Source: Cladocopium goreaui (Eukaryota; Sar; Dinophyceae; Suessiales; Symbiodiniaceae). Taken from it: a stretch of DNA of 64,000 nucleotides. The stretch is taken from NCBI GenBank assembly GCA_947184155.2, contig CAMXCT020006568.1, forward strand, positions 62,001-126,000, read 5' to 3'. The position numbers were made by a program, and so were the translations under genes. Below, one piece after another: positions 1 through 39,003 of this stretch (position 1 is its first letter; each line of letters begins with the position of its first letter). Below the pieces are notes generated by a model. It made no database searches, was not told where the DNA came from, and saw only the letters and a list, made by a program, of their open reading frames with translations.

Positions 1-127
1 CGTGCCTTTCTACACTGGTTAAGAACGGGCCCAGTTCATGGACTCCAATCATCCCCAATTTATTTTGCAATACTCTATATATAAAACAACCAATCAATGG
101 GTTTTGCCATGTGTTGAACATTTCCAG

Positions 128-328
128 GAGCCGCGAGGTCGCAAGACGCGGCCACCCAGCTCTAGCGCTTCGCCGCCGCCGAAGAAGGCCACGCCCAAGC
201 CGAAGCCGCCGGCGCCGTCGCCGGTGAAGACGGTGAAGGTCGCGAAGACGGCGCCGGTGAAGACGCTTGGAGCATGGTGGACGTTGGGTGTCTTTGAAAG
301 TGGTGGAAATGAACATAATCCACTTTGA
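128..328 (+). CDS. Lys/Pro/Ala-rich exon-like island (copy 1)
   Basis: A GC-rich island follows a good splice-acceptor-like ttccag. It reads as a basic, Pro/Ala/Lys-rich peptide (KKATPKPKPPAPSPVK then VKVAKTAPVKT), resembling the tail of a histone H1-like or other nucleic-acid-binding protein. Copies 2 and 3 lie at 15146-15344 and 36695-36883. Copy 3 lacks 12 bases here, which removes four residues and keeps the frame, weak support for coding. The open frame runs to 328, but the true exon may end near 287. No family can be named, and homology to H1 is not shown. Confidence 0.4.
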   Translation, partial: EPRGRKTRPPSSSASPPPKKATPKPKPPAPSPVKTVKVAKTAPVKTLGAWWTLGVFESGGNEHNPL

Positions 329-401
329 TAGTACCCCATTTTTAATATTTTCAATCAAACCCATGTTGGGATCGTATCATGTGTTTGTTTTTTGTTGAAG
401 G

Positions 402-466
402 GTATCCGGTGTGCCCCTGATGATCCGATTCCAAGGAAAACTATCACCAAGAAGACGCAGAAAAAG
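402..466 (+). CDS. Small basic exon-like island with clean splice donor (copy 1)
   Basis: After a tgaag acceptor-like sequence there is a short open stretch reading ...PDDPIPRKTITKKTQKK. It ends exactly at AAG followed by GTCAGT, a textbook donor. The same island is present in copies 2 and 3 (about 15419-15483 and 36957-37021). If joined to the preceding island it would extend the same Lys-rich protein. The frame is inferred from composition only. Confidence 0.35.
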
Positions 467-1428
467 GTCAGTCCAAATTCTTCAACGTTCCTTGGCGCGT
501 GATGATGGTTTTGTTGGTACGAGTAGATTCCAACCGGCTGGGGTGTGGCCCTTTAGCCATCCAACGGGTATAAACCACTCCACCCCACTTCTTTTTTTCC
601 CTTCACGTCTCGGGTTGAAGGACTAGTACTCAGCTGTTCAGCTGGTTTCAATGAAAGGTTTCAGGAAGGGCTAATACCATGCAATACCCTGGTGCAAACT
701 GTACGGTTGCTTGAGATATCATCCAGTTGCATCAAACAGGCCGTTGCGAGATGACAAACAGTGTTGGTTCCTTCATGTTTTGGAAGTGTTAAGTGGGATG
801 GAACATGTTCTGAAATGCAAGCATGCTCCTTAGCAAGATGAGGCTGCAGATGGTGTGTAAAGTTATAGACTGTAGAATTAGTATCAAAATACAGCATATC
901 AAACACAATCAATGTTTGGGTTCATCAAGTCAGGTTGACTCGCTGTCATCTAGATGTAAGCTGTTTAATTAGACTAGACATATAATCATGTAGTTTTACA
1001 TATCATTTCATTATCACCGCATCATACTCACATCATAATCCCAAATAACCCCATTGAAATTCCATGATTATCACCTTACCCTTTGGTAAACTAACATAGC
1101 TATGTACATCCCCATGAAATTCGTAGGTAAATCGTTTGTCACAAACTGGGCAAAAAAGACTGTTCGCAAAATGTTAACCGGAGCCCAGGGTATATCCGCA
1201 TCATGTTTATGATTGTTTATTCGTGATATAAACTCTGGATTATTAACCAAGTTTTTTAACCATTATTGTGATTGTGAAATTGATGTTAAACTATACTAAT
1301 TATGTTTTAACACAACATAAATAAACATCAATGCACTGTGCTTCATAGTTTTGTCCATGAATTATTGTTAACTAAACATGGATTCTTCGCGATGATCATT
1401 AACAAAGATCACCGAAACCAAACCGCAG

Positions 1429-1602
1429 GTCCCCAGTGCCGGTGCCGGCAGTGCCGGCGGTGCCGGCGCCGGCTGTGGCGAAGGGCACGAAGAAGACGAC
1501 CAAAGAGGCGAAGGTCACAGAGAGCAAGGCTGGAATGGGAGAAGGCTGGGACATGATGGAAACATATAGGGAAATTGACCTTTTCCCTTTGGTAAACTAA
1601 CG
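1429..1602 (+). CDS. Ala/Val/Pro then Lys/Thr-rich exon-like island (copy 1)
   Basis: A third GC-rich island begins at a cgcag acceptor-like site. In one frame it gives alternating Val-Pro-Ala followed by AKGTKKTTKEAKVTESK, a short Met/Glu/Trp stretch and a stop near 1602. The composition matches the two upstream islands, so it could be the last exon of the same small basic protein. The other two frames are also open (Arg/Cys-rich and Gly/Ala-rich), so the frame is not proven. Copies lie near 16507-16680 and 38041-38210. Confidence 0.35.
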
Positions 1603-2394
1603 GTTTGCTATTGGAAAATAAAAAATCAAATATATATATATATTAATTGTAAGCCAGCTAGCCATGGAAAATGAATATTCAAAATGATGAAACAATGGGG
1701 CCTTCAAGCATCAAAACAGTTATCAACATGATTTGGTGGGGATTGTTTTTGGATATAACTAACCGCCAACCGTCTATGTTTCATGTGTCTGAACATGGTG
1801 GATGCCACACACATGTTGAGTAAAGTGGGGAAGCTGATGAGCGATCAGACTTTTGGGTACCGCATGTTCAGCAGGGATGAACACCAGGATAGCAGGGTTT
1901 TGACCCGTAATCATATGTGAATGTAGCAACCCCAAAAGGATAGACCAGGAATTTGGAAACGGATTTGTCAAATGTTTTGGGGATTGCTACAATATTGAAT
2001 AGTAATACCGATGCGGATGCGATATATGTAAATTGGTAATCGGACTCGGTCATCTCTAGCATACATGATTCTAGATCATATATCTAAAATCCAATTTGGC
2101 AGATATGATATGAATGTGAAATGGATCCTGCTTCACCCTCAAACCTGGCCTTCCCCGTTGGTGCAGGAGAAGGGCAAGACTCCCAGTAGCGTCAACAAGG
2201 AGCCTGGACTGTCCAGAGTTGGACATACTTTTTTTGGTTCTGTACCAGTACCGCACAAGGCGGTAGCGGAAGTTTCAAGGATAGGACACTATAGGAGAGG
2301 TGAGTTGTTGTGATGCATGGATGGCAGAGCGAATCCACTGATGGACGGAAAGGTGGTTGGAGTTGTGTTTTTTGGAGTGGTTGCAATGGGTGCT

Positions 2395-2740
2395 GTGTGG
2401 TGTAGTGCAGTTGTAGTTGTAATTGTAGTGTAGTGGAGCTGTAGTTGTAGTGTAGTGTGATTAGCGTAGTGTAGTTGCAGTTGCAGTTGCAGTTGTGGTG
2501 TGGTGTAATTAGTGTAGCGGCGTAGCGGCGTAGCGTCGTGTAATTAGTGTAGCGTAGTGTTGTGTCATGTAGTGTAGTTGTAGTTGCAGTGTAGTGTAAT
2601 TGGTGTAGTGTAGTGTTTTGTCATGTAGCCTAGTTGCAGTGTAGCGTAGTGTAATTGAGGTAGTGTAGTGTAATGTAGTGTAGTTGTAGCTGCAGTTGTA
2701 GCAGTTGTTGTAGTTGTCGTTGTAGTGCAATTAGTCTGCA
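2395..2740. repeat. GTAGT-rich low-complexity tract
   Basis: Hundreds of bases are built from gtagt, gtagtgtagtg, gtagttgtagttgcag and gtagcggc variants on the plus strand. The same tract closes copy 2 (about 17308-17640). A truncated version closes copy 3 (38962-39003). The Tyr/Thr/His-rich frames on the minus strand are by-products of the repeat. Confidence 0.9.
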
Positions 2741-3282
2741 CAAATTATAGCGAGGACAAACGAGGCAACGAGGTGGGTAAGTCAGATTTAACGAGGTAAA
2801 GATTAATTTGGTTCTGTGAATTAGCCAACTCGACGAGGTAGCCTTGTATTTATCACTGTTCGCAATTTGGGGTGTAGATCCGTTAGGTTTAGATCCGCTA
2901 CCTTTCAAATCTCAAAAAATCCCAAAAACTCCTAGAAGTTCATGTCTCACTGTGGTATCACCAAGAGGCAGTAATGAAGCAAAAGAAACTGCGGGCATGA
3001 ACGGTTTTTCCTATCAAAGCACTGCGTTTTTTTTTCGGGAGAAGCCGTTGATTTGAACAACGGCAACCAATCTAATGACAAGTGATTCCTGTCAGTTGAA
3101 ACTGACGATTGAAGGTTCTGAATGTAGCAGCAGGCATGACCTCGGCTCAATTGACACTGACCTTAAGCCCATGCAACAATAGACACCGGCAACAGCAATG
3201 CCAAGTAATGACAACTTTCGCACCTGTATATGCAAGAACATCACCCCTTTAGACACTTGCTGGCCCATTGTGAGACATTTTG
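2741..3282. other. Stretch without recognised gene
   Basis: Up to about 2850 the sequence still matches copy 2 (acgaggcaacgaggtgggtaag). Beyond that I see no gene, repeat or RNA signature. Confidence 0.5.
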
Positions 3283-3432
3283 ATTTTTTTTTGAGACAGT
3301 TTGAGACATTTCGAGCAATTTTGAGCAGTTTTGAGCAAATGAACAAATTTGAGCAAATTTGAGCAATTTTGAGCAGTTTTGAGCAATTTTTTCGGGCCAG
3401 CTTGGGTCATGTCGAGCAATTCTGAACAATTT
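3283..3432. repeat. GAGCAATTTT / GAGCAGTTTT degenerate tandem tract
   Basis: About ten near-tandem variants of a 10-11 base unit, gagcaattttgagcagttttgagcaaa, follow a gagacatttt tract. Short Asn/Cys/Ser/Lys-rich minus-strand frames across it are a by-product of the repeat. Confidence 0.8.
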
Positions 3433-3640
3433 TTGGAAGCACGATATGGCATTGTTGACCTCGGACAGTGCTCAAAATGCCTCAAGTGCGGCTGCTTTGA
3501 GACATCTTACTTTGGCTGAAAAAGGTAGCTGATGTAAACCCCACGGATCTAGACCCTAAAACGAGATCAGTGAATTTAAGTGCCTACGGCAAGCCCGCCG
3601 GCCATAGCCTGTGCTTTTCTGTTAAGGTTCTTTGGTCTGT

Positions 3641-4275
3641 GTGTAAAAGCTTCGGTGTGTCAAAGCTTCGGTGTGTCAAAGCGTCGGTGTGTCAAAGCTT
3701 CGGTGTGTAAAAGCGTCTGTGTGTAAAAGCTTCTGTGTGTAAAAGCTTCTGTGTGTAAAAGCGTTTGTGTGTAAAAGCTTCTGTGTGTAAAAGCTTCTGT
3801 GTGTAAAAGCTTCTGTGTGTAAAAGCGTGTGTAAAAGCGTGTGTAAAAGCGTTTGTGTGTAAAAGCTTCTGTGTGTAAAAGCTTCTGTGTGTAAAAGAAT
3901 TTGTGTGTAAAAGCTTCTGTGTGTAAAAGCGTATGTGTGTAAAAGCGTCTGTGTGTAAAAGCGTCTGTGTGCAAAAGCGTCTGTGTGCAAAAGCGTCTGT
4001 GAACTTCTGTGTGTAAAAGCATGTAAAAGCTTTTGTTTAAGCTTCGGTGTGTAAAAGTGTTTGTGCGGAAAAAACACCAAAAATCCTGCACCCTGCTGGG
4101 GGAGAGCTTTTTTGACGGAGGGGCGGGAAAGCCTCTGTGTGTAAAAGCGTCTATGTGTAAAAGCGTTTATGTGCAAAAGCTGCTGTGTGTAAAAGCGTTT
4201 GTGTGTCAACGCGTTTGTGTGTAAAAGCGTTGGTGTGTAAATGCGTCCGTGTGTAAAAGCTTCTGTGTGTCAGAG
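3641..4275. repeat. 16-bp VNTR (GTGTGTAAAAGCTTCT type)
   Basis: About 38 degenerate units of a 16-base repeat, gtgtgtaaaagcttct with gcgtct and gcgttt variants, span 640 bases. A non-repeat insertion at about 4035-4130 interrupts them. Sixteen is not a multiple of three, so each reading frame shows a 16-residue period every three units, which gives artefactual His/Thr/Phe-rich long frames on the minus strand. Confidence 0.93.
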
Positions 4276-4282
4276 CTTCTGA

Positions 4283-4390
4283 CGAGTCGAAGCCGGAGTC
4301 GCGTCGGAGTAGGCGTTGTGGGGGTAGTAGGAGCAGGAGTAGGAATAGGAGTAGGAGTAGTAGTGAGGGGGGGGAGGGGGTGAAGAGGGG
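4283..4390. repeat. Purine-rich GGAGTA tract with G runs
   Basis: A gagtcg/ggagtagg repeat passes into gaggggggggagggggtg. The plus strand is almost pure purine and could form triplex or G-quadruplex DNA. No coding signal. Confidence 0.7.
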
Positions 4391-5247
4391 AACTAGCGTC
4401 TAGTATAGATCAGCTAGAACGTCTTCCCAAGACAGCTTCACACCCTTTTACTCTCAGCTTATTGCCAGTCGGTGTGGTGTCCACAGGGTTACTCTATATC
4501 CCTCTTGAGCCTTGAAGGAGGCGCATATAAATGTGCTCAATACTCATGCATAGTACCTGGTAGGTATTAGGTCGAAACAAAAACACAGGCACAAATTCAA
4601 AAGCAATGAGTAGAGCACTACGCCTTGTCGTACTCAATCGGAACTAAGAGTATCATCCCGTGTTAGCTACACAATGGCAAATCGGCAAAAACTATACGAA
4701 GTCTTAAAAATCGGCTACACAGTGGATTCGAAAAAGAAAACGTCTTGAAATTGCGGGATGTCTTTAAGACATGTCGAGGTGAAAAACAGTCAGCAGATTC
4801 GCTCATTTTTCCCGGCATGACCAGTGGTGCGCTAGGCACGGTCTCTCCAAGCAAAGTGCTCGCTCTACCGGTGTGGAATGTGACTCTTTCGATGCAAGAT
4901 TCAGACATGTTTGGTCGACGAAAAACAATGGACCGAATCACTAAATAAACGGAAGTAGCGGATCTCCAAAGTTGCTCATTCAAGCGAACGATGGACTGAA
5001 ATCGAAATTGATATATTGGACTCTCTCCATTCGGAGGTGTTCTGCTCAACGGAAGGTTGACGGAAATAATATGTGACAGTGTCTCTATCTATAGGAGTCT
5101 CTATCTACATTAAATTGAAATTCGGACATTATAATGACATTGTCTCCATCTAAAAGAGTATATGCCATTATCTTGGAAACAAGCTTACGCACAGAAAACT
5201 GTACAAGCCTCTCAAGCTGTGTTATCTTCATCTAAAGAAGTATACAC
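4391..5247. other. Non-coding stretch beyond the 3' end of the copia-type element
   Basis: No recognisable domain. It contains a dispersed motif of the form tctccatctaaaagagtata, seen with variants near 5080, 5140 and 5225. That might be remnants of an LTR or subterminal repeat, but no matching copy is found at the other end of the element. A 128-codon minus-strand frame (5049-4663) has no recognisable features and is not called. Confidence 0.45.
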
Positions 5248-7410
5248 TCACTTTGGTCTCCATGTCCAGGACGATGAGCTAGAAGATCCACCATAACTAG
5301 TGTTGCGTTGATCGCGTTCTGCTCGATCTTCATAGCCTTTCCTCTTATTCTGTTTCTGAATTTCCTTCCTTTGTTCCTTCCTTTTGATCTTCTGTTCTTT
5401 TGGTTTATAGGTGTTCCTCTCATTCCATGTCATAGTGGAAGGTGTCAGATGAACCAATAGAGGATTGTGAGCATCACGATCATTTGGTGCAACCATGAAA
5501 ATGTTGTGATCACCATTCAAGCAAGTTTCGTTCACCTTGAATTCAAACTCACCAATGTAGTTCAGATGATCTTCATCTTCAAACTCTGAAGGATCTTCTT
5601 CATATACCTTTCGTGACTGGCCCCACTCAACCACTGAAAGCATACAACAATCACTCTTGTCTGTTGTCTTCTTCATGAGCTCTCCAGTGTATGTAGCTGT
5701 TGTAATACCTTCAAGATGTGTCGCAAGAAAATCAAGTTCACGATAGCTGCAAGAAATGAAATGTTTGACCCTGATTGGAGGGCTAGTTGAATCAAAATGC
5801 TTGCGCTGAGCTTGTGTTGCAACTGCCATCATCTTGTTAATCCAGTATTGTAACAGGCTATGTTAATATGTGGGAACTCCCGGTGACTTTGGCATTGTAA
5901 AATATGCTGCCTTGTTGCCGTCACCTGCAATCACGTCAACTTGGTATCTTGCACATTCGAAAGCCATAATAGCAATACATTCACCAACGATACCAGCTGA
6001 TTTTGAGGCATATTCCTGTCCAACATGATAGACACACACACACACACGTGTCATCTTCATTCTTGCCCTTGTCAAGTCAATGATATCTTCTGTGTCACGA
6101 TGCTTGGTCTTACCCCAGTAGACCTCAAAGATCGCCCATGAGACTTGACGAACTCGTGTGTCATTCTCCCTTTCACAATAGCCAGCAATTTGCTTGACAT
6201 AACCTTCCTTTCCGACACGAGCAGCAACCATCAAATCTTGATAGTCATTGAAGCATACAGTCATCTTGGCCTCTTCGAGACGAGCTCTGCGAGGATAGAT
6301 TGAACCTGCTTCACAATTCATGAAAAGATGGCCTCCGAAGTTCTTGATGACATTGATGAAATAATTGTTGTATTGAGTCTTCTCATTGTCAATAGGTTGG
6401 TGATGTTCATCAATATCATAGTCGATGTGTGGAACAAATCGTTCCAGTCTTTCTGGAACAGGGCATTTGTCAAACCTTGTTCGACACCAGTTCCCTAGGT
6501 TCCAAAACATCGCTGTAAACTGTGGAGAAATCCTGTAAGGGTACTCTTCGTCATTGTACGTTGGGTCCACCAAACCACCTCCCAAATACCTAGCTGCTAA
6601 GCAGTGTAGTATGGTACAGTAAGGCAGTACTTTGTGTTCCTCAACATAACATTCAAGTACCCTGGTCAAATATTGAAAATCATCATCAATTCTGGATTCT
6701 GCTTCTTTTGAGGCTGCTTCAGATTTGTCTTGATGTCTAGGGTGCATTCTCAAATCACTACAGCCATACTCAATATTGTTCTTGAGTTCTTCTAATTCCT
6801 CGAAAGGTAGTTGACCCTTATGTCTGGCAATGTACTCAGCCATCAACTGATCATCAGTAAGGTGATACCAGAAATCTTTGTGTGAGGCCATGGTCTTCCT
6901 GTACTTGACATGCCAAAACATGTGTCGGTGATGAGGAGAAGCTGGGCAACCTTGATTGTAAAAACCTGCCCATACATCATGGTAACCATCTGGAAAACAA
7001 TCTTTCAATCTTCAAAAAACTGAATCATCTTCGCTTCCAGTGATGTCATAACCATAGTATAGTCTCTTGGCAGTTTCTTGTTCTGGGGCTGTGTCATCTC
7101 ATTGAATCTTGGGTTCCTGTTCCCCTGATTTCTCTTTCTCTGAAGAGTCTTCAGGTGGAGCTGGTGTCTCTTTCTCTGAAGAGTCTCCAGGCTTTGTTCC
7201 TGTCAAAAATGATTCATCAGTTTGACACTGCATGTCTGCCATTGTAGGTGCTGGAACTTTTGGATCACAAGGTTCATCTTCTTCCTTAACTTCAACTACC
7301 ACTTCTTCAAATTCGTCTGTTTTCTCATCTTTTGTCTCTGTCTTGACAACTCTGTCGATGATCTTCTGCTTAAGATTCTCGTTGCACATGTTCAACCATT
7401 GATAGTACAC
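5248..7410 (-). pseudogene. Second ORF C-terminal part: endonuclease/exonuclease/phosphatase-like domain
   Basis: One reading frame spans this stretch, with in-frame stops at 7099, 7011 and 5865 (most likely nonsense changes) and no shift. In order, EEP-like motifs are: FTAMFWNLGNWCR (N-terminal WN), FMNCEAGSIYP (candidate metal-binding Glu), VCVYHVGQ, VDVIAGDGNKAAYF (GDxN motif) and, near the end, DRDAHNPLLVHL (Asp-His motif). The order and spacing match an EEP fold, but individual motifs are divergent. A Lys/Arg-rich tail ends at 5248. It might nick target DNA, or process RNA together with the KptA domain; both are inference. Confidence 0.55.
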
Positions 7411-8114
7411 TCAACCAAATCATCATCATCTGCTTCCAGGATAATGTGTTTGTTTTCACGACTCAGATGTTCAACAGAATTCTTGAATTCAGGATCAGCA
7501 TTCGTTTGTACTTCAGGACGTAGAAGAGGAGTCTCAGGATTGTCATCTGCTAGTTCTGGTTCCTCTATGTCCTCGAAGTTGCTGGGCTTGATGTGTCTGT
7601 TGTTCTCCAAGACCGCCTTCATACTCATGTGTAGAACATGATAATCATCATATTCAACTGGAAACTGAATGCCTGGTCCATATAGATTCATGAAACTGTG
7701 GAATGATTCTTGGGCTAAGAACTCCATCATCATCTCTAACGATATATATGAGAGATCTCCACGTCGTATTGGTGGTCGCCCTTCCAAATCATCTTCTCTG
7801 AGAATGCCTTGTGCGCTGAGTGAAATTTCATGCAATAGTCGTTGATGTGCTGGACTGAGCTGCTTGAACAAGAATTGTCCCCATCTGTCCACAGGATCTC
7901 TAGGAGGTTCTACATCTCCCAAAGCATCTTCTTCATCATGTACCTCTTCTGCTTGTGGTTCCTCTTTCTCTGAAGAGCTTCCACTCTTTTCCTCTTTCTT
8001 CTCCTTGGACTTCAGGGTAACTTGCAATCTTGGTAGTTCATCAAAGTTCTTCATCTGGTTCATGATCATCATCATCCTGCATTTGAACATCATCAGCTTG
8101 ATCCTTTGGAACAT
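7392..8114 (-). pseudogene. Second ORF continued: acidic linker and unassigned domain
   Basis: A one-base shift near 8041-8050 separates this frame from the KptA-bearing one. Reading on from DELPRLQVTLKSKEKKE it gives a Glu/Lys-rich linker, then a compact segment (RWGQFLFKQLSPAHQRLLHE ... LSYISLEMMMEFLAQESFHS) and another acidic tail. The first codons, rich in Met, overlap the previous frame and are not expected to be translated. No family is recognised. Confidence 0.6.
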
Positions 8115-10437
8115 GTGTCATCTTCCTTTCACCTGCGATCCAAACATATCCTGCAAGCTTTGTAGATGTTGAAAGCTTCCCTGCACCAAACTCTCTAACT
8201 CGAGTGCGTGCTGTGGCAGATTCATGAAATTCTTCATGCTGGAAGAACTGATTGTAAGCATGCTCAACGAAGAATCTGTAAGACTGAGCTGTCATTTCCT
8301 TTCTGCTATCCACAAACTGTCGAAGCTTCTTGATGGCAAAAGTTGTAAATGGGCTATAGCTTGGTGGTGATTCTTCCTCATACAGATCAATTGCCATAAC
8401 CATCAGCTTTGTGGAAAACGAGAAGTGTTTTTCTGGCTCTGGAATAACTGTCTTCTTGTTCATTGGAATCCTCACACCTGGAATGGTTGTATCAATGTGT
8501 CTGTCATAGAGTTCCAATTCTTCCAGAATGTTGCCATGTCTGCCAACTCTTCTCCTGCAGAAATCTCCCCACAACTTGTCATTCTCCCTGATCAACCAGT
8601 CAAGATGCTTGGTGTAAAAGACAAAGACGGCTTCTGTGAGATAATCCATGTCGCTTTGGATTGCTAGATCTCTCTCATAGAGTAAATACTTCTCACGCCA
8701 AGTGTCTCTGTCGATCTCATGCCTGGTGTCCCAACCAGCAGGTGCGATCATACCTCGCATCCAATCTGTCCAATATAGACGACAGTTGTCAAGGAAGTTC
8801 CTCATTTCAGAGATTCTGTTTTCCTTCTTCAAACTTGCTTGATAACGTCCCATCTCCCATGATCGAGTGAGTAAGAAGCATGTGAAACCAGTCCATGGAA
8901 GCTTTTCCCAATCAGCACGACCAATGGATTGCCTCCTCAATGCTATCTTCTGTGCTGACATTAGGCAATTCCATTCTCTGAGGACAATGATCTTCTCTCC
9001 TGATTCATTCTTGACCCAGGGATTTGATGCAGAAATAGATGATTTTGTTGCTTGTTCAACTACATAGTCATCATCTGGTGGTTCTTCTGCTTCCCAAAGA
9101 TCTACTGCTTCTTCACCCATGGGATCATCATCTGTATCGGCCATTGGCTCTTCTTGTTGATTGTCCTGAGCATCTTGTGTTGGTCGATAGTTCTGCCAAG
9201 GATCATCTCCCCAAGGATCATGTTGTGGAGGTTCAGAACTTCCTGATGATGAACGTTGTTGTTCCCATTGATCGTCAGGTGTCTCTCTCTGAGTAGAGTC
9301 TCCTGATCGTCTGGATGGTTGTTCATATGGATTCCTCATTGGTTCACTGCCTTGTGCAGATGCCTCTCTCTGAGTAGAGCTTTCTGCTGTCAGGCCATGG
9401 ATAGAATCCACCGTTGGAACAAAATCACATTCCTTTGCCAATGGAAGACCAAAAACAAGTTTTCCATAGTTTGATGGAACTTTCTGACCCATGAACTCCC
9501 ATGCAGTAGTTCTGACTGTCTCTGGAACATCATCTGATCCTGGGATAAAAGCCAGTGCCTTTTCTCTTTTGGCGTGATGCCAAGTGGTGTCTGAATAGCA
9601 TGTGCCACCGGTCACAGATGGAGGTAATGAATGGCCACGTCCTTTACGAACAATGTTACAAGCAATTGTGGGAAGTTGTTCTTTGACATGAAGGTACTGG
9701 AAAGCCACATCGCCATGAAATAGAACAACACCATTCTTGGAAAGGAAAAGCTGTTGGTCCTCAATGAAACTTGGATCCAACACGAGGTACACAGTTCTTC
9801 TGTAAGATCTTGGTTGAGTAGTGCCTTCTGCCATCCTTATGTAGCCTGGACCATTATCATTGTGATACATGAAGTGTACTGCATCTCTTCCACCTTTTCC
9901 ACTTCCTTTCGCATTGGTCGTCAGTCCCCATCGTTGAATGGATTGTAAGTTCTCATAATCAGTGACATGAAAAATCCAGCCCAAACTCATAGATTCATCA
10001 TGTGTCAATGGATGGTGTGCAACAAGTGGATTCACAACTTGTTTGGAATGACCTTGAACTGCCCTGATACGAACATCGAAAGGGTATGTTGCAGCTGCAC
10101 TGTATGGATACCAAGTCCATTGCATATGGATCTCAATGTGGAATCTTTGTTTTGGATTGCTCAACAACATGGCCGCAAACTGGGCTCCAGACATATTGTT
10201 CTGCCTTGGATTATTCCAATCCATCTGGTTGAAACAATCTGCGATGTTCATACTTCCATCTGATGCAAAAATTGACTTCTGTTTGTAATGTCTCAACACA
10301 CCTGACAAAGCCTTGCTGCACTTCACGATGTGACTTTGATAGTTCTGTCGTCCAGTTGTCTCGGCATAGAAGTCATTGCATAGATTGTCAAACCATTCCT
10401 CTTCATCTTGGTCGGTGTAACCACAGAGATATTTCAA
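8041..10437 (-). pseudogene. RNA 2'-phosphotransferase (Tpt1/KptA-like) domain protein
   Basis: Residues about 38-255 of this 798-codon frame follow the Tpt1/KptA layout: SKALSGVLRH (Arg49-His50), a short helical segment, NPKQRFHIEI (94-103), IRAVQGHS (124-131), a GWIFHVTDYENLQSIQRWGL stretch (about 153-172), RDAVHF (184-189), RRTVYLVLD (213-221) and SKNGVVLFHGD (233-243). The Arg-His-Arg-Arg set known for this family appears kept. Tpt1/KptA enzymes remove the 2'-phosphate left at RNA ligation junctions, using NAD. The rest is an acidic Gln/Pro/Trp-rich linker and a roughly 330-residue helical domain I cannot name. The frame opens at a TTG, so the true start is the ATG at 10867. Confidence 0.75.
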
Positions 10438-10441
10438 AAAC

Positions 10442-10867
10442 TCAGCAATCCAGTGTAGCTAAGTCAGAAAATTCTCCATTGTCCTTACCAAAAATGAGGA
10501 TCCAGGAAATAACATCCATAAGCATCTGAACTCTGTCAAATGGGCTCATGTTGTTTGGTCCTAAGACGGTGTGGATCGTTCTGTGTTGTTTCCTCCTCAC
10601 GTGATTGTGAGCCTGAAACCACTGAGTTGTTGTTCGGTACCCACAACAGTAAGCCATGTGATCCTCATAAGCTGCTGTATCTGGCTTCCTGTCCTTGTTA
10701 TCTGGGATTGCCTCTGATCTACGCAGAGCATATCCTTCAGATGGTACCTGTCTTCGTTTTTCAGAATCATACTGTGAATCACGATATTCTTGACCTCCTG
10801 AATCAGATTGTGCCTGAGCACGGTATTCTGCGTTCGAGGTCCTTGACCACCGGTTAGAGCTCGACAT
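10442..10867 (-). pseudogene. Start of the second ORF of the copia-type element
   Basis: I choose the ATG at 10867 (MSSSNRWSR...), which follows the RNase H stop. The first 60 residues are Arg/Gln/Ser-rich and probably disordered. A more ordered part follows, containing Cys-Cys-Gly and PFDRVQMLMDVISWILIFGK. It ends at a TGA caused by a one-base shift. In the next frame the sequence continues WIAEFLKYLCGY straight into the KptA-like domain, so the two frames were one ORF. Confidence 0.65.
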
Positions 10868-10936
10868 GGTGAAGAAACAGTGCGTATCTCGAGACTCTAC
10901 TACCCTTGAAGCCGCATGCACAAATTCAAAAAATAG

Positions 10937-11407
10937 TCAAGAATCCCTCAGGGTGTCACCTAACAGGAAAACATCATGTCGGAAATCAACATGAATGCAA
11001 ACTGTTGGCAACCATGACCTGAGGTAAGCTTTGTGTTCCAGTAATGATCTGAATGGAGGATGAGCATCCACTTCTTTAAGAACACCTTGTCGAACAGCAT
11101 CAATAAGATTCTGAGGATTGGCAGATTTCTTGGTCAAACAATCAGCTAAACACCATTGAGTTCTGATATGTGACAAATCAGCAATTGAACCTGAACATGC
11201 TTCCTTCCTAAGCATCTGAATCATGTGAATAGTCTCTTGTTGTTCAGGAACATGAGTAGTACTAGCAGTAGTCACAAGATTGTTTGCATCAGTCCTCATA
11301 TGAATCTCACTTGAAAGTCCAGTAATGTCCTTGACGAGTCCTCTTAACATCTGACAAGTGCCATAACACTTCATCAATGCATACAACTCAGCAACAGTGG
11401 TGCTCAA
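10937..11407 (-). pseudogene. Copia RNase H domain
   Basis: The frame begins STTVAELYALMKCYGTCQML, the usual RNase H motif with its Glu in a helix. It continues HMRTDANNLVTT (Asp of the second motif) and WCLADCLTKKSANPQNLI (final Asp). This is the standard C-terminal domain of a Ty1/copia pol. The stop at 10937 falls 70 bases before the ATG of the next ORF, and both share the strand, so they may be carried on one transcript. Confidence 0.85.
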
Positions 11408-11444
11408 AGTGGTTCGTTTGATTTTGGTTGATTCAAAGAAAATA

Positions 11445-11690
11445 AGAGAACCTTTGGTATTTTTGCTCTACCATTGCGCGCTGTGAGGATTTGTCGCTGT
11501 TGTTCCTAAACGCTGCATCGGGCATAGCAACTAATCTAGGATCACCTTGAAGTGGCCAGGACATAAGTTCCATAGGGTCACCTACAATTTGCCTGCAAAG
11601 TTTGCTCAGCGTTTTGCAATCACCTACTGTGGGTGAAGCAGCGGCAGAAGCACAACGTGAAAACTGATAACATGACTGAATTGGGTTCTT
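11445..11690 (-). pseudogene. RT thumb/connection segment in shifted frame
   Basis: After the shift near 11690 the alternate frame is open and reads SCYQFSRCASAAASPTVGDC, then LCRQIVGDPMELMSWPLQGD and RLVAMPDAAFRNNSDKSSQ, the conserved connection to RNase H. It stops near 11445. Another frame resumes KGSLIFFESTKIKRTTLSTT into the RNase H. The shortened junction suggests a small deletion. Confidence 0.75.
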
Positions 11691-13108
11691 GATTGTAACC
11701 AGTTGATACTACCTAACAAAGACCTATAGGCAGTATGGAGATCCTTGTCATATTTCTCTTCATCCTTCATACCTTTTGGTATCAGAATCTCAGACAGTTC
11801 ACTGACACACAGTGACTGTTCAACAGTGATGTGAGATTTCTTCTTGGTCTTTTCATCAATAATCCATTTCACACGCTGACCAGTGAACATCAAGTCATTC
11901 ACATCTTCATGACCAATCTTGAATTGTGACTTGACAACCTTTTTGAACTTCTCCAGAAATTCTGGAGCGCCAGTAATGAACAAGTCATCAACATGTAAAC
12001 AACACATGCCAATAGGTTTTCTTCCCTTGGCATTACTCCCATTCACAGGGTCCATGAAGTGTTCCAAGAGTTCTTCAACAATCTCAGGTGTCAACTGTGG
12101 TGTCGTGGTAAGATATGTACGCTCTGAAGGTAAGAAGGCTGAAACAAGTACTTCAGCTTCTTCTTCCAAACTTGTGGAAACATTTTCCTTGTTCAAGTCA
12201 TGATTCACTTCAAGCAACCACCAAACTCCTTTTCTCTTCACAATAGAAGTTCTCAAATGAAACTTCTTTCGATCATATTGTGGCTCAGGAGTTCTCAATG
12301 CTTTTGCACGATAGGCAACTTGAGCATGACCATTTTCAAAGTTGTGCCAACCAGACTTGTGTTCAACAGATTCCAAGAATTTCAACATGGTTTCATCAAC
12401 AACAGGAGTCCAAGCACAATCTTCAACCTTCTTTTCCTTGAACTCTTTTCTCTGTTTCCATGTTTGGGTTTGTTGATAACAAGCTGAAAACAACCTTTCT
12501 TCAACCAAAAGAGACTTATGAACTTCCTCAGCAATGTCGGAGGATTCATCACGTGTTTCCTCAATCTCATGTGAGCTTACGCTATAATAGGACACAGGTG
12601 CGGGTTCAGTTGTCTCAGAGTCAGCAAAGCTAACTTGTTTTGGCTCCTTAAAAGCACCTTCATAGCACACATATGTGCATCTGTCCGCTCTTGTTGGTTG
12701 AATGCCAAGCGAAATCAGAAACTTGTCTAAGCGGTTCCACCACCTACGCGGTGCGTCCGCAAGTCCATAGACGGAACGAGTGCACAAACCAACCAAGTAA
12801 GGAGGCAAACCAATGTCAGTAGGCAACTGAACATGGATAACACGTCGGTCTAAGTCGTATGTTTCCCCCTGAAGGAAGGCAGTTTTCAAGTCTAAATGGA
12901 GTAAATCCCAGTACATCGAGGCTGCATGCTGAGATGCCACACGAAAACCATACCTGGTAGCAGTAGGACTATCAGTCTGTAGGTCATACTTCTGTGCATC
13001 TTGGAAGCCTCTGCATACCCATCTAGCCGCTAGCCTTGAACTTCTTGAACTGTCCATCCTTATCAACCTTGATGGTAAGCACCCATCTGCCAGTGACATA
13101 GTTATCAA
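11624..13108 (-). pseudogene. Ty1/copia reverse transcriptase (RVT_2)
   Basis: The 494-codon frame has the copia RT signature: ARWVCRGFQDA at residues 28-38, LDLKTAFLQGE at 72-82 (first catalytic Asp), SVYGLADAPRRWW at 112-124, and LHVDDLFITG at 371-380 (the VDD active site). The end, SLLGSINWLQSRTQFSHV, is also typical. A 5-base insertion (tagcg) just before ARWV breaks the join to the lead-in. A one-base shift near 11690 throws the end out of frame. About 220 residues between the fingers/palm block and the VDD motif are unusually long and charged. Confidence 0.9.
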
Positions 13109-13110
13109 TC

Positions 13111-13572
13111 TTACGACGTCTCTTTGTCTCTGAAAGTCATGGCAGTGAAATCCAGAAAACTTCTGAATTCTTCAAGCTTGGCTTCTTTGATCTCCTTAGC
13201 ATACTTCTTCAAAATTTCTTGAGTGATAACTGATTCAGCTTTCGGCTGCTTCTTTCCATTCTTGGCCAAATACTGTTCAAACTGTTTGAATCCAGTAACA
13301 TCGTATGAACCAAAATCAGGAGCAGCATGTATTTTGGGTGTCAACGGAACAAAAGCAGTACCATCGATATCGACAAAGTGAGAGTGGTCTGATGTGTAAG
13401 GTTCAGTGTCCACATCTTCTTCCTGAAGCGGAGCAATGTCTTCCTCAGTCAAACATGATTTGTTTAGATGTTTGTGTAATGCATGGTGTTTCTGGGAAAC
13501 ACTTACAACACGTTTTTTTCTCTGTGAATCAGCGTTTTGTTTAGTAGGAAGATGCGCTTTGACACTCAGCAT
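13111..13572 (-). pseudogene. Copia polyprotein, linker upstream of RT
   Basis: An open frame of 153 codons is charged and Lys/Glu-rich (...QEILKKYAKEIKEAKLEEF...). It ends at a TAA just before the RT. A one-base shift at the stop leads into the next frame, which continues R-K-I-D-N-Y-V-T-G-R-W-V-L, the usual lead-in to a copia RT. It probably corresponds to the region between integrase and RT. The Met at 13572 need not be a real start, because the element appears truncated here. Confidence 0.6.
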
Positions 13573-13575
13573 GGT

Positions 13576-13974
13576 GCTTGCTTAAACCAGGGCTTGAATT
13601 TAAACCGAAGCAGTGTGTGAACCAAGGTTCCTGAAAAAGGCTATACATAGAAAGGTTGCGCGTGTAAATTGTGTTCTGCACAAAAGCAAGTGGATTGACA
13701 GGCCACATGTATGAGGCATAGGAATGTAGAAAGTGTAAGAATGACAGAGCAAACCAATCGTGAGCACCACAATGGAAACAGCGTGGGCAGAGTCGAACCC
13801 AGCACATTGCAACGAAAGACGCAGAGGAAAAACACGAACAGGAGAGACAAAACATGGGTTTTGCGTAAGCCGGGGTTTGAGTTGAAACTGAATCATGTTT
13901 CGAAACTAAGGTTGAAACGAAAAATGATAAGCACGACGCGGAGAGGGGGGGGAGGGGTGTCATTTACGAATTTT
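13576..13974. repeat. Dispersed repeat shared with the upstream flank of copy 3
   Basis: Bases 13761-13950 (gagcaccacaatggaaacag... to ...acgacgcggagagg) match 36062-36250 almost perfectly. This sequence therefore precedes segmental copies 2 and 3 alike and is probably part of the repeat unit. Bases 13576-13760 have no second copy in the window. Confidence 0.85.
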
Positions 13975-14160
13975 TAGAATTTGGAGCTGGGAACAATTTA
14001 GAATTTTTAGAATTTTTAGAATTGAATTTTAAAAATTCTGAGCTTGGAAAAATTGAGAATTCTAAATTTGGAGCTTAGTAAAATTTAGATTTTCAGAATT
14101 GAATTCTAACAGTCTAAATGTGGAGCATGGAAAAATTTAGAATTTTTACAAGGAAAACTG
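13975..14160. repeat. AGAATTTTT / GAATTCTAA low-complexity tract
   Basis: Repeated tttagaatttttagaattttt and gagcttgg(a)aaaattt motifs. The tract is absent from the corresponding place before copy 3, so it is an insertion or local expansion in copy 2. Confidence 0.75.
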
Positions 14161-14194
14161 CGCGCGCCACATAGTACATGTTTTTTCCTCGTAC

Positions 14195-14480
14195 GGGGGG
14201 TGGGGGAGGGGGGTTCAAGTTAGACGGGGCAAAAATCCGCACCAGGGGGAAAGTCTAGACAGAGACTGAAGACTAAACAAACAGTACAACTACGAACAAG
14301 CAAGATCCACAAGACACGCCGGCAGGCCGGCGGATTCACTTAAATTGTTACTATTTCTGCTCAATGTGAAATATGATGAAATAACTCTGATAGTTTGCAG
14401 AAGTCCATTCCTATAGCAGTTGGAAATTTTACTCATAGTCTACATAAATAGACTTTATATAATTTTACAGCCCTCTCTTC
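14195..14480. repeat. Second shared block upstream of copy 2
   Basis: From ggttcaagttagacggggca through the gccggcaggccggcgg palindrome to ttttactcatagt, this stretch repeats at 36290-36560. It links the 13761-13950 block to the main segmental repeat, so the full unit is larger than copy 1 shows. Confidence 0.88.
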
Positions 14481-15016
14481 ATAGAACGGCTTGCACTATG
14501 TTTCTGCTAAGAGCCTTTAAGCCTTTTCTAGGCCCAATGGATTCCCAATTCAAACCCTGGAGAAACCCAAAAGGCTCCCAAATAATCCCACTGAACCACC
14601 AACAAAACCTAAATTGCCCCCAACAAAAACCTAAATAATTTCCGAAAATGGGCCAAGCACATCCAAGGGATCACCAACTGATTTCCAAACAATTCCCAAC
14701 CAATTCCCAAAAATGGGCTGCACCACCACCACAAACCCAATAAAACCTAAGAAAAGCTAACAGGAACCCAACAAATTCCCCAAAATTGGCTGCACCCACA
14801 TCAAAAACCAAATCAAACCTAAACAAAGCTAGGGCAAAAACAAACAAAACATAAAGTCCCCCACCCGACTAAACTCCCATAGGTGTTCAATGTGTTTTTA
14901 TTAGCTTACTTTAGTCTCTTTTGGGTTTTTGATGGGGTTTCCTTAGGGTGCATATATGGCCAAAAATACCTCTAGCAGAAACATACCCCATGCCATTCTA
15001 AGATCTCTGGTCTCTC
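14481..15016. other. Insertion specific to copy 2: CAAA/CCCAA-rich degenerate repeats
   Basis: This stretch interrupts the block shared with copy 3. It has loosely repeated ~100-base units containing caaacccaataaaacctaa, attcccaaaaatgggctgca and similar. No coding potential beyond short chance frames. Confidence 0.6.
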
Positions 15017-17758
15017 GTGCCTTTCTACACTGGTTAAGAACGGGCCCAGTTCATGGACTCCAATCATCCCCAATTTTTTTTTGCAATACTCTATATATAA
15101 ATCAATCAATCAATGGGTTTTGCAATGTGTTGAACATTTCCAGGAGCCGCGAGGTCGCAAGACGCGGCCACCCAGCTCTAGCGCCTCGCCGCCGCCGAAG
15201 AAGGCCACGCCCAAGCCGAAGCCGCCGGCGCCGTCGCCGGTGAAGGCGGTGAAGGTCGCGAAGACGGCGCCGGTGAAGACGCTTGGAGCATGGTGGACGT
15301 TGGGTGTCTTTGAAAGTGGTGGAAATGAACATAATCCACTTTGATAGTACCCCATTTTTAATATATTTCAATCAAACCCATGTTGGGATCGTATCATGTG
15401 TTTGTTTTTTGTTGAAGGGTATCCGGTGTGCCCCTGATGATCCGATTCCAAGGAAAACTATCACCAAGAAGACGCAGAAAAAGGTCAGCTCAAATTCTTC
15501 AACGTTCCTTGGCGCGTGATGATGGTTTTGTTGGTACGCGTAGATTCCAACCGGCTGGGGTGTGGCCCTTTAGCCATCCAACGGGTATAAACCACTCCAC
15601 CCCACTTCTTTTTTCTCTTCACGTCTCGGGTTGAAGGACTAGTACTCAGCTGTTCAGCTGGTTTCAATGAGAGGTTTCAGGAAGGGCTAATACCATGCAA
15701 TACCCTGGTGCAAACTGTACGGTTGCTTGAGATATCATCCAGTTGCATCAAACAGGCCGTTGCGAGATGACAAACAGTGTTGGTTCCTTCATGTTTTGGA
15801 AGTGTTAAGTGGGATGGAACATGTTCTGAAATGCAAGCATGCTCCTTAGCAAGATGAGGCTGCAGATGGTGTGTAAAGTTATAGACTGTAGAATTAGTAT
15901 CAAAATACAGCATATCAAACACAATCAATGTTTGGGTTCATCAAGTCAGGTTGACTCGCTGTCATCTAGATGTAAGCTGTTTAATTAGACTAGACATATA
16001 ATCATATAGTTTTACATATCATTTCATTATCACCGCATCATACTCACATCATAATCCCATATAACCCCATTGAAATTCCATGATTATCACCTTACCCTTT
16101 GGTAAACTAACATAGCTATGTACATCCCCATGAAATTCGTAGGTAAATCGTTTGTCACAAACTGGGCAAAAAAGACTGTTCGCAAACTGTTAACCGAAGC
16201 CCAGGGTATATCCGCATCATGTTTATGATTGTTCATTCGTGATATAAACTCTGGATTATTAACCAAGTTTTTTAACAATTATTTTGATTATGAAAATTGA
16301 TGTTAAACTATACTAATGATGTTTCATCATAGTACACCAATGGATTAGTATTAACTAACTGTAGATAATTAACAATGATTATGTTTTAATACCACATAAA
16401 TAAACATCAATGCACCGTGCTTCATAGTTTTGTCCATGAATTATTGTTAACTAAACATGGATTCTTCACAATGATCAGTAACAAAGATCACCGAAACCAA
16501 ACCGCAGGTCCCCAGTGCCGGTGCCGGCAGTGCCGTCGGTGCCGGCGCCGGCTGTGGCGAAGGGCACGAAGAAGACGATCAAAGAGGTGAAGGTCACAGA
16601 GAGCAAGGCTGGAATGGGAGAAGGCTGGGAAATGATGGAAACATATAGGGAAATTGACATTTACCCTTTGGTGAACTAACGGTTTGCTATTGAAAAATAA
16701 AAAATCAAATATATATATATATTAATTGTATGCCACACACATGTTGATTAAAGTGGGGAAGCTGATGAGCGATCAGATTTTTGGGTACCGCATGTTCAGC
16801 TGGCAGGGATGAACACTAGGATAGCAGGGTTTTGACCCGTAATCATATGTGAATGTAGCAACCCCAAAAGGATAGACCAGGAATTTGGAAACGGATTTGT
16901 CAAATGTTTTGGGGATTGCTACAATATTGAATAGTAATACCGATGCGGATGCGATATATGTAAATTGGCAATCGGACTCTGTCATCTCTAGCATACATGA
17001 TTCTAGATCATATATCTAAAATCCAATTTGGCAGATATGATATGAATGTGAAATGGATCCGCCTTCCCGGTTGGTGCAGGAGAAGGGCAAGACTCCCAGT
17101 AGCGTCAACAAGGAGCCTGGACTGTCCAGAGTTGGACATACTTTTTTTGGTTCTGTACCAGTACCGCACAAGGCGGTAGCGGAAGTTTCAAGGATAGGAC
17201 ACTATAGGAGAGGTGAGTTGTTGTGATGCATGGATGGCAGAGCGAATCCACTGATGGACGGAAAGGTGGTTGGAGTTGTGTTTTTTGGAGTGCTTGCAAT
17301 GGGTGCTGTGTGGTGTAGTGCAGTTGTAGTTGTAATTGTAGTGTAGTGGAGCTGTAGTTGTAGTGTAGTGTGATTAGCGTAGTGTAGTTGCAGTTGCAGT
17401 TGTGGTGTGGTGTAAGTAGTGTAGCGGCGTAGCGGCGTAGCGGCGTGGAGTTAGTGTAGCGTAGTGTTGTGTCATGTAGTGTAGTTGTAGTTGCAGTGTA
17501 GTGTAATTGGTGTATTGTAGCGTTTTGTCATGTAGCCTAGTTGTAGTGTAGCGTAGTGTAATTGAGGTAGTGTAGTGTAATGTAGTGTAGTTGTAGCTGC
17601 AGTTGTAGCAGTTGTTGTAGTTGTCGTTGTAGTGTAATTAGTCTGTACAAATTATAGCGAGGACAAACGAGGCAACGAGGTGGGTAAGTCAGATTTAACG
17701 AGGTAAAGATTAATTTGGTTCTGTGAATTAGCCAACTCGACGAGGTAGCCTTGTACTG
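15017..17758. repeat. Segmental repeat, copy 2
   Basis: Nearly identical to 1-2840, including all three GC-rich islands, the tatata runs and the GTAGT tract. Differences include a 60-base stretch around 16320-16375 that copy 1 lacks but copy 3 has, and absence of the 1671-1790 stretch near 16730. So copies 2 and 3 do not descend simply from copy 1. Confidence 0.93.
15146..15344 (+). CDS. Lys/Pro/Ala-rich exon-like island (copy 2)
   Basis: Same island as at 128-328, differing by a Thr-to-Ala change in the SPVK(T/A)VKVAK stretch. It is flanked by the same acceptor-like ttccag. Confidence 0.4.
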
Positions 17759-18044
17759 GTTTGTTGCATGTTTGGACTGGGTTAGAAAAACTTTTGGGGA
17801 GCCACAAAGTTTGATTTTCCGTCACTAGAGGTCCAACTCCACAAAAGGAAGGACAGAAACTTTTGCGGTGTAGGAAAGTTTTTTTGAACGCATTCTACCC
17901 GAGCTTGCTTTGCTTTCATCACTATGAGCATGAAAGAGCTGCAAAGAAAACTATAAAAAAATGTACGAGAATTTTTTGGGGGGTCAAGCTGTCGAACTTG
18001 CTCTTGTTTTAGTCACCATGACGCTCAAAGTGCTGGTGACCAGT
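17759..18044. other. Divergent leader of the satellite array
   Basis: Contains weak echoes of the 159-base satellite (aaacttttggggagccacaaag, caaactttt) but no regular period. No gene seen. Confidence 0.5.
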
Positions 18045-25935: not shown

Positions 25936-25986
25936 TCCAAACCAGCCTCTTTGCACTCTGCCATCCTACTCTTCTTCCATGACTAT

Positions 25987-26220: not shown

Positions 26221-26292
26221 GGCATCTGCTGCAAGCTAAGAGTAGTGGTCATATTCTCCACTTCTCTCACAAAATCTTGGCGTTTCTTCGGT

Positions 26293-31500: not shown

Positions 31501-31520
31501 TAGGGTTTTTGAGCCCATTT

Positions 31521-36061: not shown

Positions 36062-36568
36062 CGTGGGAGCACCACAATGGAAACAGCGTGGGCAGAGTCG
36101 AACCCAGCACATTGCAACGAAAGACGCAGAGGAAAAACACGAAGAGGAGAGACAAAACATGGGTTTTGCGTAAGCCGGGGTTTGAGTTGAAACTGAATCA
36201 TGTTTCGAAACTAAGGTTGAAACGAAAAATGATAAGCACGACGCGGAGAGGGGGGGAGGAGGAGGGGGGGGGGAGGGGGGGGGGAGGGGGGGGTGGGTTC
36301 AAGTTAGACGGGGCAAAAATCCGCGCCAGGGGGAAAGTCTAGACAGAGACTGAAGATTAAACAAACAGTACAACTACGAACAAGCAAGATCCACAAGACA
36401 CGCCGGCAGGCCGGCGGATTCACTTAAATTGTTACTATTTCTGCTCAATGTGAAATATGATGAAAAAACTCTGATAGTTTGCAGAAGTCCATTCCTATAG
36501 CAGTTGGAAATTTTACTCATAGTTTGTATAAATAGACTTTATAATTTTGCAGCCCTCTCTGGTCTCTC
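36062..36568. repeat. Flanking block shared with copy 2
   Basis: Matches 13761-13950 and 14195-14480. Between the two matching parts (36245-36300) is an almost pure G/A run in place of the AT-rich tract seen in copy 2. Confidence 0.9.
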
Positions 36569-39003
36569 CTACCTTTCTACACTGGTTAAGAACGGGCCCA
36601 GTTCAAGAACTCCAACCATCCCCAAGTTATTTTGCAATACCCTCCTTATAAAACAATCAATCAATGAGTTTTGAAATGTGTTGAACATTTCCAGGAGCCG
36701 CGAGGTCGCAAGACGCGGCCGCCCAGCTCTAGCGCTTCGCCGGCCGCGCCCAAGCCGAAGCCGCCGGCGCCGTCGCCGGTGAAGGCGGGGAAGGTCGCGA
36801 AGACGGCGCCGGTGAAGACGCTTGGAGCATGGTGGACGTTGGGTGTCTTTGAAAGTGGTGGAAATGAACATAATCCACTTTGATAGTACCCCATTTTAAT
36901 ATATTTCAATCAAACCCATGTTGGGATCGTATCATGTGCTTGTTTTTTGTTGAAGGGTATCCGGTGTGCCCCTGATGATCCGATTCCAAGGAAAACTATC
37001 ACCAAGAAGACGCAGAAAAAGGTCAGCTCAAATTCTTCAACGTTCCTTGGCGCGTGATGATGGTTTTGTTGGTACGCGTAGATTCCAACCGGCTGGGGTG
37101 TGGCCCTTTAGCCATCCAACGGGTATAAACCACTCCACCCCACTTCTTTTTTCTCTTCACGTCTCGGGTTGAAGGACTAGTACTCAGCTGTTCAGCTGGT
37201 TTCAATGAGAGGTTTCAGGAAGGGCTAATACCATGCAATACCCTGGTGCAAACTGTACGGTTGCTTGAGATATCATCCAGTTGCATCAAACAGACCGTTG
37301 CGAGATGACAAACAGTGTTGGTTCCTTCATGTTTTGGAAGTGTTAAGTGGGATGGAACATGTTCTGATATGCAAGCATGCTCCTTAGCAAGATGAGGCTG
37401 CAGATGGTGTGTAAAGTTATAGACTGTAGAATTAGACTCAAAATACAGCATATCAAACACAACCAATGTTTGGGTTCATCAAGTCAGGTTGACTCGCTGT
37501 CATCTAGATGTAAGCTGTTTAATTAGACTAGACATATAATCATATAGTTTTACATATCATTTCATTATCACCGCATCATACTCACATCATAATCCCATAT
37601 AACCCCATTGAAATTCCATGATTATCACCTTACCCTTTGGTAAACTAACATAGCTATGTACATCCCCATGAAATTCGTAGGTAAATCGTTTGTCACAAAC
37701 TGGGCAAAAAAGACTGTTCGCAAATTGTTAACCGGAGCCCGGGGTATATCCGCATCATGTTTATGATTGTTTATTCGTGATATAAACTCTGGGTTATTAA
37801 CAAAGTTTTTAACCATCATTGTGATTATGAAATTGATGTTAAACTATACTAATTATGTTTCATCATAGTACACCAATGGATGAGTATTAACTAACTATAG
37901 ATAATTAACAATGATTATGTTTTAACACAACATAAATAAACATCAATGCACTGTGCTTCATGGTTTTGTCCATGAATTATTGTTAGCTAAACATGGATTC
38001 TTCGCGATGATTAACAAAGATCACCGAAACCAAACCGCAGGTCCCCAGTGCCGGTGCCGGCAGTGCCGGCGGTGCCGGCGCCGGCTGTGGCGAAGGGCAC
38101 GAAGAAGACGACCAAAGAGGCGAAGGTCACAGAGAGCAAGGCTGGAATGGGAGAAGGCTGGGAAATGATGGAAACATATAGGGAAATTGACATTTACCCG
38201 TTGGTAAACTAACGGTTTGCTATTGGAAAATAAAAACCAACTATATATTAATTGTAAGCCAGCTAACCATGGAAAATGAATATTCAAAATGATGAAACAA
38301 TGGGGCCTTCAAGCATCAAAACAATTATCAACATGATTTGGTGGGGATTGTTTTTGGCTATGTTTCATGTGTCTGAAAATGGTGGATGCCACACACATGT
38401 TGGTTACAGTGGGGAAGCTGATGAGCGATCAGATTTTTGGGTACCGCATGTTCAGCTGGCAGGGATGAACACCAGGATAGCAGGGTTTTGACCCGTAATC
38501 ATATGTGAATGTAGCAACCCCAAAAGGATAGACCAGGAATTTGGAAACGGATTTGTCAAATGTTTTGGGATTGCTACAATATTGAATAGTAATATCGATG
38601 CGGATGCGATATATGTAAATTGGTAATCGGACTCTGTCATCTCTAGCATACATGGTTCTAGATCATATATCTAAAATCCAATTTGGCAGATATGATATGA
38701 ATGTGAAATGGATCCGTCTTCCCCGTTGGTGCAGGAGAAGGGCAAGACTCCCAGTAGTGTCAACAAGGAGCCTGGACTGTCCAGAGTTGGACATACTTTT
38801 TTTGGGTTCTGTACCAGTCCGCACAAGGCGGTTGCGGAAGTTTCAAGGATAGGACACTATAGGAGAGGTGAGTTGTTGTGATGCATGGATGGCAGAGCGA
38901 ATCCACTGATGGACGGAAAGGTGGTTGGAGTTGTGTTTTTTGGAGTGGTTGCAATGGGTGCTGTGTGGTGTAGCGCAGTTGTAGTTGTAATTGTAGTGTA
39001 GTA
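36569..39003. repeat. Segmental repeat, copy 3
   Basis: Follows copies 1 and 2 throughout, with a 12-base in-frame deletion in the first GC-rich island (near 36739) and several single-base changes. Its GTAGT tract is cut short at about 39003, where a fragment of LINE RT sequence takes over. Confidence 0.92.
36695..36883 (+). CDS. Lys/Pro/Ala-rich exon-like island (copy 3, four residues shorter)
   Basis: Same island as in copies 1 and 2; SPPPKKATPKPKPP becomes SPAAPKPKPP. The indel keeps the frame. Acceptor-like ttccag precedes it as before. Confidence 0.4.
   Translation, partial: EPRGRKTRPPSSSASPAAPKPKPPAPSPVKAGKVAKTAPVKTLGAWWTLGVFESGGNEHNPL

Follow-up and report, generated by a model that had tools for sequence, protein, structure and literature searches.

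Does a long terminal repeat (LTR) retrotransposon of a dinoflagellate carry its own RNA-repair enzyme? The question is raised by 64,000 nucleotides of the Cladocopium goreaui genome (GenBank assembly GCA_947184155.2, contig CAMXCT020006568.1, positions 62,001 to 126,000 of the forward strand; the window, that is, the whole stretch that was analysed), in which an initial annotation, made from the letters alone, had described a copia-type element with a Tpt1/KptA-like RNA 2'-phosphotransferase behind its RNase H. We find that a large LTR retrotransposon with a copia-type reverse transcriptase (RT) is present in the window as a damaged copy, and that the open reading frame (ORF) with the Tpt1 domain is part of this element. 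The combination first described is thus upheld, and what the enzyme would do for the element we infer. Our overall explanation, to which we give a probability of roughly 0.6, is that the Tpt1 is borne by the element, would be active in its intact copies and would serve the element there. The parts on which this explanation rests are the following, where designations such as P0027 denote clusters of related database proteins.

15016..17755, minus strand: 5' LTR, starting at 17755 with TACAAGG, its inner end at or slightly below 15016; a 96-98% direct repeat of 1-2848
11624..13108, minus strand: ORF of the copia-type RT, 494 amino acids; RVT_2 at 56.7 bits against a cut-off of 31.6
10937..11407, minus strand: putative RNase H section of pol; what follows the RT in P0027 and P0059 is 96-98% identical to it
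10868..10939, minus strand: spacer from pol to the accessory ORF, starting with TGA where six fused relatives have Trp or Cys
10442..10867, minus strand: N-terminal part of the accessory ORF, from the ATG at 10867, with an open frame up to 10921; it loses frame in the window copy
8041..10437, minus strand: Tpt1 part of the accessory ORF, 798 amino acids; its homologues form 70 protein clusters, among them P0003, which matches 98% of the ORF at 66% identity
9715..10329, minus strand: Tpt1/KptA (PTS_2-RNA) domain, residues 37-241, from Pfam, fold and alignments
10291-10293 (R49), 10288-10290 (H50), 10144-10146 (R98) and 9886-9888 (R184), minus strand: catalytic residues
7392..8114, minus strand: middle part of the accessory ORF, in another frame in the window copy and joined to the Tpt1 part in P0005
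5248..7008, minus strand: C-terminal part of the accessory ORF, 5863-7008 and 5248-5832 in the same frame with one TAA between them (5865-5863)
1..2848, minus strand: 3' LTR, starting at 2848 and extending past the start of the window

Three kinds of evidence bear on the identity of the accessory domain. First, the five peptides on which the Tpt1 assignment had been founded are all present on the minus strand and in the Tpt1/KptA order. The ATG at 10867, given as the start of the ORF that contains them, exists, but its ORF stops at 10442 and the motifs lie outside it, in the 798-residue ORF at 10437-8041 (minus strand), whose frame differs from that of the ATG-10867 ORF in the window copy. Second, a Pfam search with the translation of 10437-8041 gave a significant match to PTS_2-RNA (PF01885; E = 2.2e-15, 57.6 bits against a cut-off of 26), which spans residues 37-241 and profile positions 3-176 of 177; of the eight ORFs of the window that were scanned, six had no family above the cut-off, the exceptions being this ORF and the RVT_2 ORF. 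Third, the predicted domain model has the Tpt1 fold: Foldseek returned 20 matches at E <= 0.001, of which 19 are titled as Tpt1, KptA or tRNA 2'-phosphotransferase, and the twentieth is 1wfx (APE0204 of Aeropyrum pernix), which we take to be the KptA of that organism. R49, H50 and R98 align with the LRH and K-x-R-F/Y motifs of solved Tpt1 chains, and R184 with their GRxxVH; together they correspond to the catalytic Arg-His-Arg-Arg set of yeast Tpt1. The residues at these positions are conserved across the alignment of relatives, and the active-site columns are nearly invariant despite 30 to 99% identity to the window protein. Judged by sequence and fold, the recognisable accessory domain is a predicted Tpt1/KptA RNA 2'-phosphotransferase with its catalytic residues conserved. 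It is like known members of the family (PF01885; mouse/human Tpt1, 7yw2 and 7yw3) in its fold, motif order, Arg-His-Arg-Arg positions and QGH motif, and differs from them in being only ~26% identical to the mouse protein, in reading HVT for HGT, and in lying inside a long, multi-part retrotransposon protein. A phage RNA 2'-phosphotransferase family of PHROGs matches weakly (23.7 bits).

Does this ORF belong to the retroelement, or does it merely adjoin it? The copia-type RT that had been described just upstream on the same strand is confirmed by its RVT_2 match; its frame is broken near the 3' end, ahead of the RNase H. The latter is recognised by position, by acidic motifs and LADCLTKK seen by eye, and by contiguity with the RT in P0027 and P0059, and 10937-11407 has no Pfam match and no PDB sequence match. 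A protein search with the Tpt1 ORF (E up to 1e-3) returned 70 clusters that stand for 874 member sequences, from candidate proteins whose length was 0.55 to 1.75 times that of the query, a range that places stand-alone cellular Tpt1 outside the sample. PTS_2-RNA is detected at E 0.5 in 53 of the 71 aligned members; several others start past the domain, and many database copies are fragmentary. In six of the 70 clusters (P0027, P0059, P0064, P0065, P0067 and P0068) RNase H lies upstream of the Tpt1 module in one open frame, the end of the RT is also present in two of these six, and all four fused relatives that were scanned exceed the PTS_2-RNA cut-off. The tree includes the 54 sequences that cover 180 or more residues of the domain region, the other 17 of the 71 being too short; in it the fused P0027, P0059 and P0067 fall on three separate branches, and the Tpt1 module is retained across deep branches. 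In the DNA, the RT, RNase H and accessory ORFs are all enclosed by the paired direct repeats, which share the LTR start TACAAGGCTACC and have 49 mismatches at 2671 aligned places and 9 gaps (1-2848 against 15016-17755; Kimura two-parameter (K2P) distance 0.0186); each of the two is more distant from a third LTR copy at 36568-39002 (K2P 0.025 and 0.028). One LTR runs past the edge of the window, and the target-site duplication is therefore unreadable. Because of the fused relatives and the enclosing repeats, the ORF is part of the copia element, as had been proposed, and not a chance neighbour. One relative carries the gene-model name symbB.v1.2, which we take to denote Breviolum minutum, a dinoflagellate, and the many-copy retroelement family with a captured Tpt1 gene apparently belongs to dinoflagellate algae; tblastn with the Tpt1 domain found no relatives in phages, and none in viral contigs or genome contigs.

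Within the element, the accessory protein appears to be encoded by a separate ORF with its own start, occupying the position of env. At the TGA behind the window's RNase H, five of the six fused relatives have Trp and P0067 has Cys; depending on the genetic code with which the database proteins were predicted, a Trp at this site could itself be encoded by TGA. A pattern for the start of the accessory ORF (ATG 10867), composed after the sequences had been inspected, is present in 28 of the 70 relatives, namely the six fused to RNase H, 15 with the pol-proximal spacer peptide at their N terminus and seven whose first residue is the Met itself. The Met is internal in the first 21 of these, and the codon there is therefore surely ATG. 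By eye, the remaining 42 mostly begin further downstream, in P0011 the spacer is read in a different frame, and the N termini of P0066, P0069 and P0070 are of other kinds. Towards the other end, P0020, P0022, P0034 and P0070 extend into the ORF at 5863-7008. P0034 begins past the Tpt1 domain and P0020 and P0022 begin within its last third; among the four only P0070 has a partial PTS_2-RNA match (Pfam, profile 90-174), and downstream of it lies a 30% identical relative of the C-terminal part (5248-7008). No fold was recognised for this part by Pfam, by PDB profile searches or by a structure model with Foldseek; the model, based on three sequences, reached a predicted local distance difference test (pLDDT) score of 35 and gave no usable Foldseek match. 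Its E, GD-N and D-A-H-N-P motifs, seen by eye, are reminiscent of EEP (endonuclease/exonuclease/phosphatase) nucleases, and no EEP family was found for 5248-7008 in Pfam or among the PDB sequence matches. An NCBIfam match to MoaE in the same part (E 0.0023; 17.5 bits against a cut-off of 175) was dismissed as chance.

Whether pol and the accessory part have travelled together was judged from copies compared as proteins. In all six pairs of four fused proteins, identity amounts to 80-97% in the RT/RNase H part and to 41-70% in the accessory part, over stretches of unequal length. Since the RNase H stretches are unequal, identical stretches were compared for the window and the six fused relatives; identity to the window in RNase H and in Tpt1, respectively, is then 99 and 66% for P0027, 94 and 47% for P0059, 85 and 53% for P0067, 97 and 72% for P0064 and P0065, and 97 and 68% for P0068, a smaller contrast than on the unequal stretches. 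Over 78-79 residues of RNase H, P0059 differs from the window at 5 and P0067 at 12, and P0059 is no nearer in the Tpt1 part; the tree unites P0067, P0027 and the window on one branch (100/98) and leaves P0059 outside it. This is a modest sign that the 3' cassette may have been exchanged between elements, and unequal constraint also explains the general contrast between RNase H and the accessory part.

What, then, would a retroelement do with this enzyme? The known setting of Tpt1 is tRNA splicing; what it does beyond that is, to our knowledge, an open question. The predicted enzyme probably retains the Tpt1 chemistry, in which a 2'-phosphate is transferred to NAD. A 2'-phosphate blocks reverse transcriptase, and an element-borne Tpt1 could therefore clear ligation scars from the element's RNA or free a cleaved tRNA primer of the phosphate at its end. 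We propose that in intact copies the enzyme would move phosphate from RNA onto NAD, and that its likeliest use would be to clean RNA needed as template or primer: reverse transcription would be halted by a 2'-phosphate where a break in the genomic RNA has been ligated, or on the 3' end of a tRNA fragment that serves as primer, and Tpt1 would clear it in either place. That the predicted enzyme acts on RNA for the sake of replication at all is about an even bet, and the specific healing of primer or template is a tentative suggestion, somewhat on the unlikely side. More doubtful still is that RNA repair would be obligatory in the retrotransposition of this copia lineage, with Tpt1 as an exchangeable 3' cassette that heals the cleaved tRNA primer or the scars of genomic RNA and moves between pol backbones like env.

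A number of observations weigh against our explanation. On the side of the enzyme, the stretches that include the GRxxVH alignment are weak alone (E-values 36 and 42); the catalytic residues are among the best conserved columns but share that rank with others (conservation reaches that of R49 in 11 of 222 columns and that of H50 in 30 of 222); and the best of the bacterial KptA equivalogs of NCBIfam (NF002013, NF002014 and NF002015) falls far short, at 28.7 bits against 239. Where Tpt1 has its HGT motif the window has H-V-T, V occurs there in 49 of 55 rows, and as this position presumably belongs to the NAD-binding region, the NAD pocket may differ. On the side of the element, the LTR begins with TA and not with the usual TG, and no convincing candidate for a primer-binding site or a polypurine tract was seen by eye, which leaves the idea of a tRNA primer without support from the element's sequence. 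No gag, protease or integrase was matched by Pfam in three minus-strand frames of 13000-17999; the window copy appears internally deleted, and the relatives' sequence upstream of the RT is outside view. The window copy is damaged, its frames being split and interrupted by stops, and none of the copies seen was intact and full-length. Given the split frames, the TAA at 5865-5863 and the missing gag, protease and integrase matches, the window copy is not a working element.

The change from HGT to HVT also bears on a different chemistry, in which a Tpt1-fold ADP-ribosyltransferase would cap the 5' ends of RNA or cDNA with ADP-ribose for protection and would remove no 2'-phosphate. In line with this, 9lda, a KptA complex titled with 5'-p-ADPR-DNA, ranks among the best fold matches, and the first match beyond the Tpt1 family is the ADP-ribosyltransferase DarT1 (8baq, E 0.014). 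The residues at the Arg-His-Arg-Arg positions are nonetheless conserved, and we consider such a change improbable. Similarly improbable is that the enzyme would reverse a host's cleavage or marking of retroelement RNA and would be swapped among elements as defences shift. The far greater divergence of the accessory part than of RNase H, as in P0059 and P0067, is as expected for a module of conflict or exchange, but it also fits weak constraint, the catalytic core is conserved, and the host target is not known. Could the gene be a functionless passenger, captured and then amplified with the element? The window copy is broken and many database copies are fragments; against this, the near-invariance of the active-site columns and the persistence of the module across deep branches make a dead passenger very unlikely. 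Finally, an unrelated host Tpt1 gene that adjoins a copia fragment, for which a stop between the pol and Tpt1 frames would speak if the window stood alone, is rejected as hardly credible, because pol and Tpt1 share one frame in six of 70 relatives (the three placed in the tree falling on three branches), 15 more relatives start with the pol-proximal spacer peptide, and LTR-like repeats enclose both.

The remaining features of the window include a second insertion of the same LTR family.

13762..14478, minus strand: region behind the 5' LTR, taken as leader, with pieces common to the third copy
36067..39002, minus strand: second insertion, a truncated member of this LTR family made up of an LTR (36556-39002) and leader pieces
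3636..4281, no strand assigned: 16-bp tandem repeat arrays between the accessory ORF and the 3' LTR

The leader pieces correspond as 13762-13955 to 36067-36259 and 14195-14478 to 36279-36560; the 36067-39002 insertion lacks a stretch of ~525 bases that the first copy has at 14479-15003, and AGAGA marks the junction. In 1-4999, two minus-strand frames were without any Pfam match. Elsewhere there are a 159-bp tandem repeat (18045-19389; 8.5 copies, 96% matches), tandem arrays at 39374-40444 (units of ~75 and 355 bp) and 49335-50214 (220 bp), and scattered short GGGCTATCCAGCCCA-type repeats across several kb (25567-28121 and 31026-33555) beside ORFs without a Pfam match. A 299-residue ORF at 24010-24909 (plus strand) resembles, by eye, the stretch of a long interspersed nuclear element (LINE) between endonuclease and RT, and has no Pfam match. 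No spliced-leader relics with up to three mismatches and no tRNA genes were found in the window; Rfam gave nothing at gathering score in the window and nothing at E 0.5 in 1-18000.

An element-borne Tpt1 that serves its element, the explanation that we favor, can be set beside known systems. Like Ty1/copia (RVT_2) elements, the window element has an RVT_2 RT, a putative RNase H after it and long direct repeats on both sides; unlike them, it has several kb of extra ORF with an RNA-repair enzyme after RNase H, its LTR starts with TA, and gag and integrase were not found in the window copy. Sireviruses and other env-carrying copia lineages have an extra ORF between RNase H and the 3' LTR, and the placement is the same here, whereas the product of the window ORF is an RNA-end enzyme, with no search aimed at an envelope protein as such. 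Captured cytosine methyltransferases are described in PMC5890265 for three retrotransposons, SymbioLINE-Dnmt, SymbioDIRS-Dnmt3 and KnitGypsy-Dnmt3, with purifying selection reported on the domain. The first two are LINE and DIRS elements of Symbiodinium and the third a charophyte Gypsy element, and copia elements are given there as the most abundant in Symbiodinium and without a DNMT domain. The likeness lies in a retrotransposon with a captured enzyme domain, in two cases from Symbiodinium; the difference is that those belong to the LINE, DIRS and Gypsy types and carry a DNA methyltransferase, whereas the window element is of copia type with an RNA-modifying enzyme. Heat-activated copia elements are reported from Symbiodinium microadriaticum (PMC11453091). 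The word phosphotransferase is absent from the main text of both papers, and "phosphotransferase Tpt1" was not found among the matches listed by a literature search, which does not establish the absence of the element from print.

The conserved catalytic residues hint at RNA repair or RNA-end chemistry in the life cycle of the element. With this element, an RNA-modifying enzyme would join the published DNA methyltransferases among the enzymes captured by retrotransposons (PMC5890265), and a many-copy retroelement family that keeps the Tpt1 active site offers a setting in which another role of Tpt1 may be tested.
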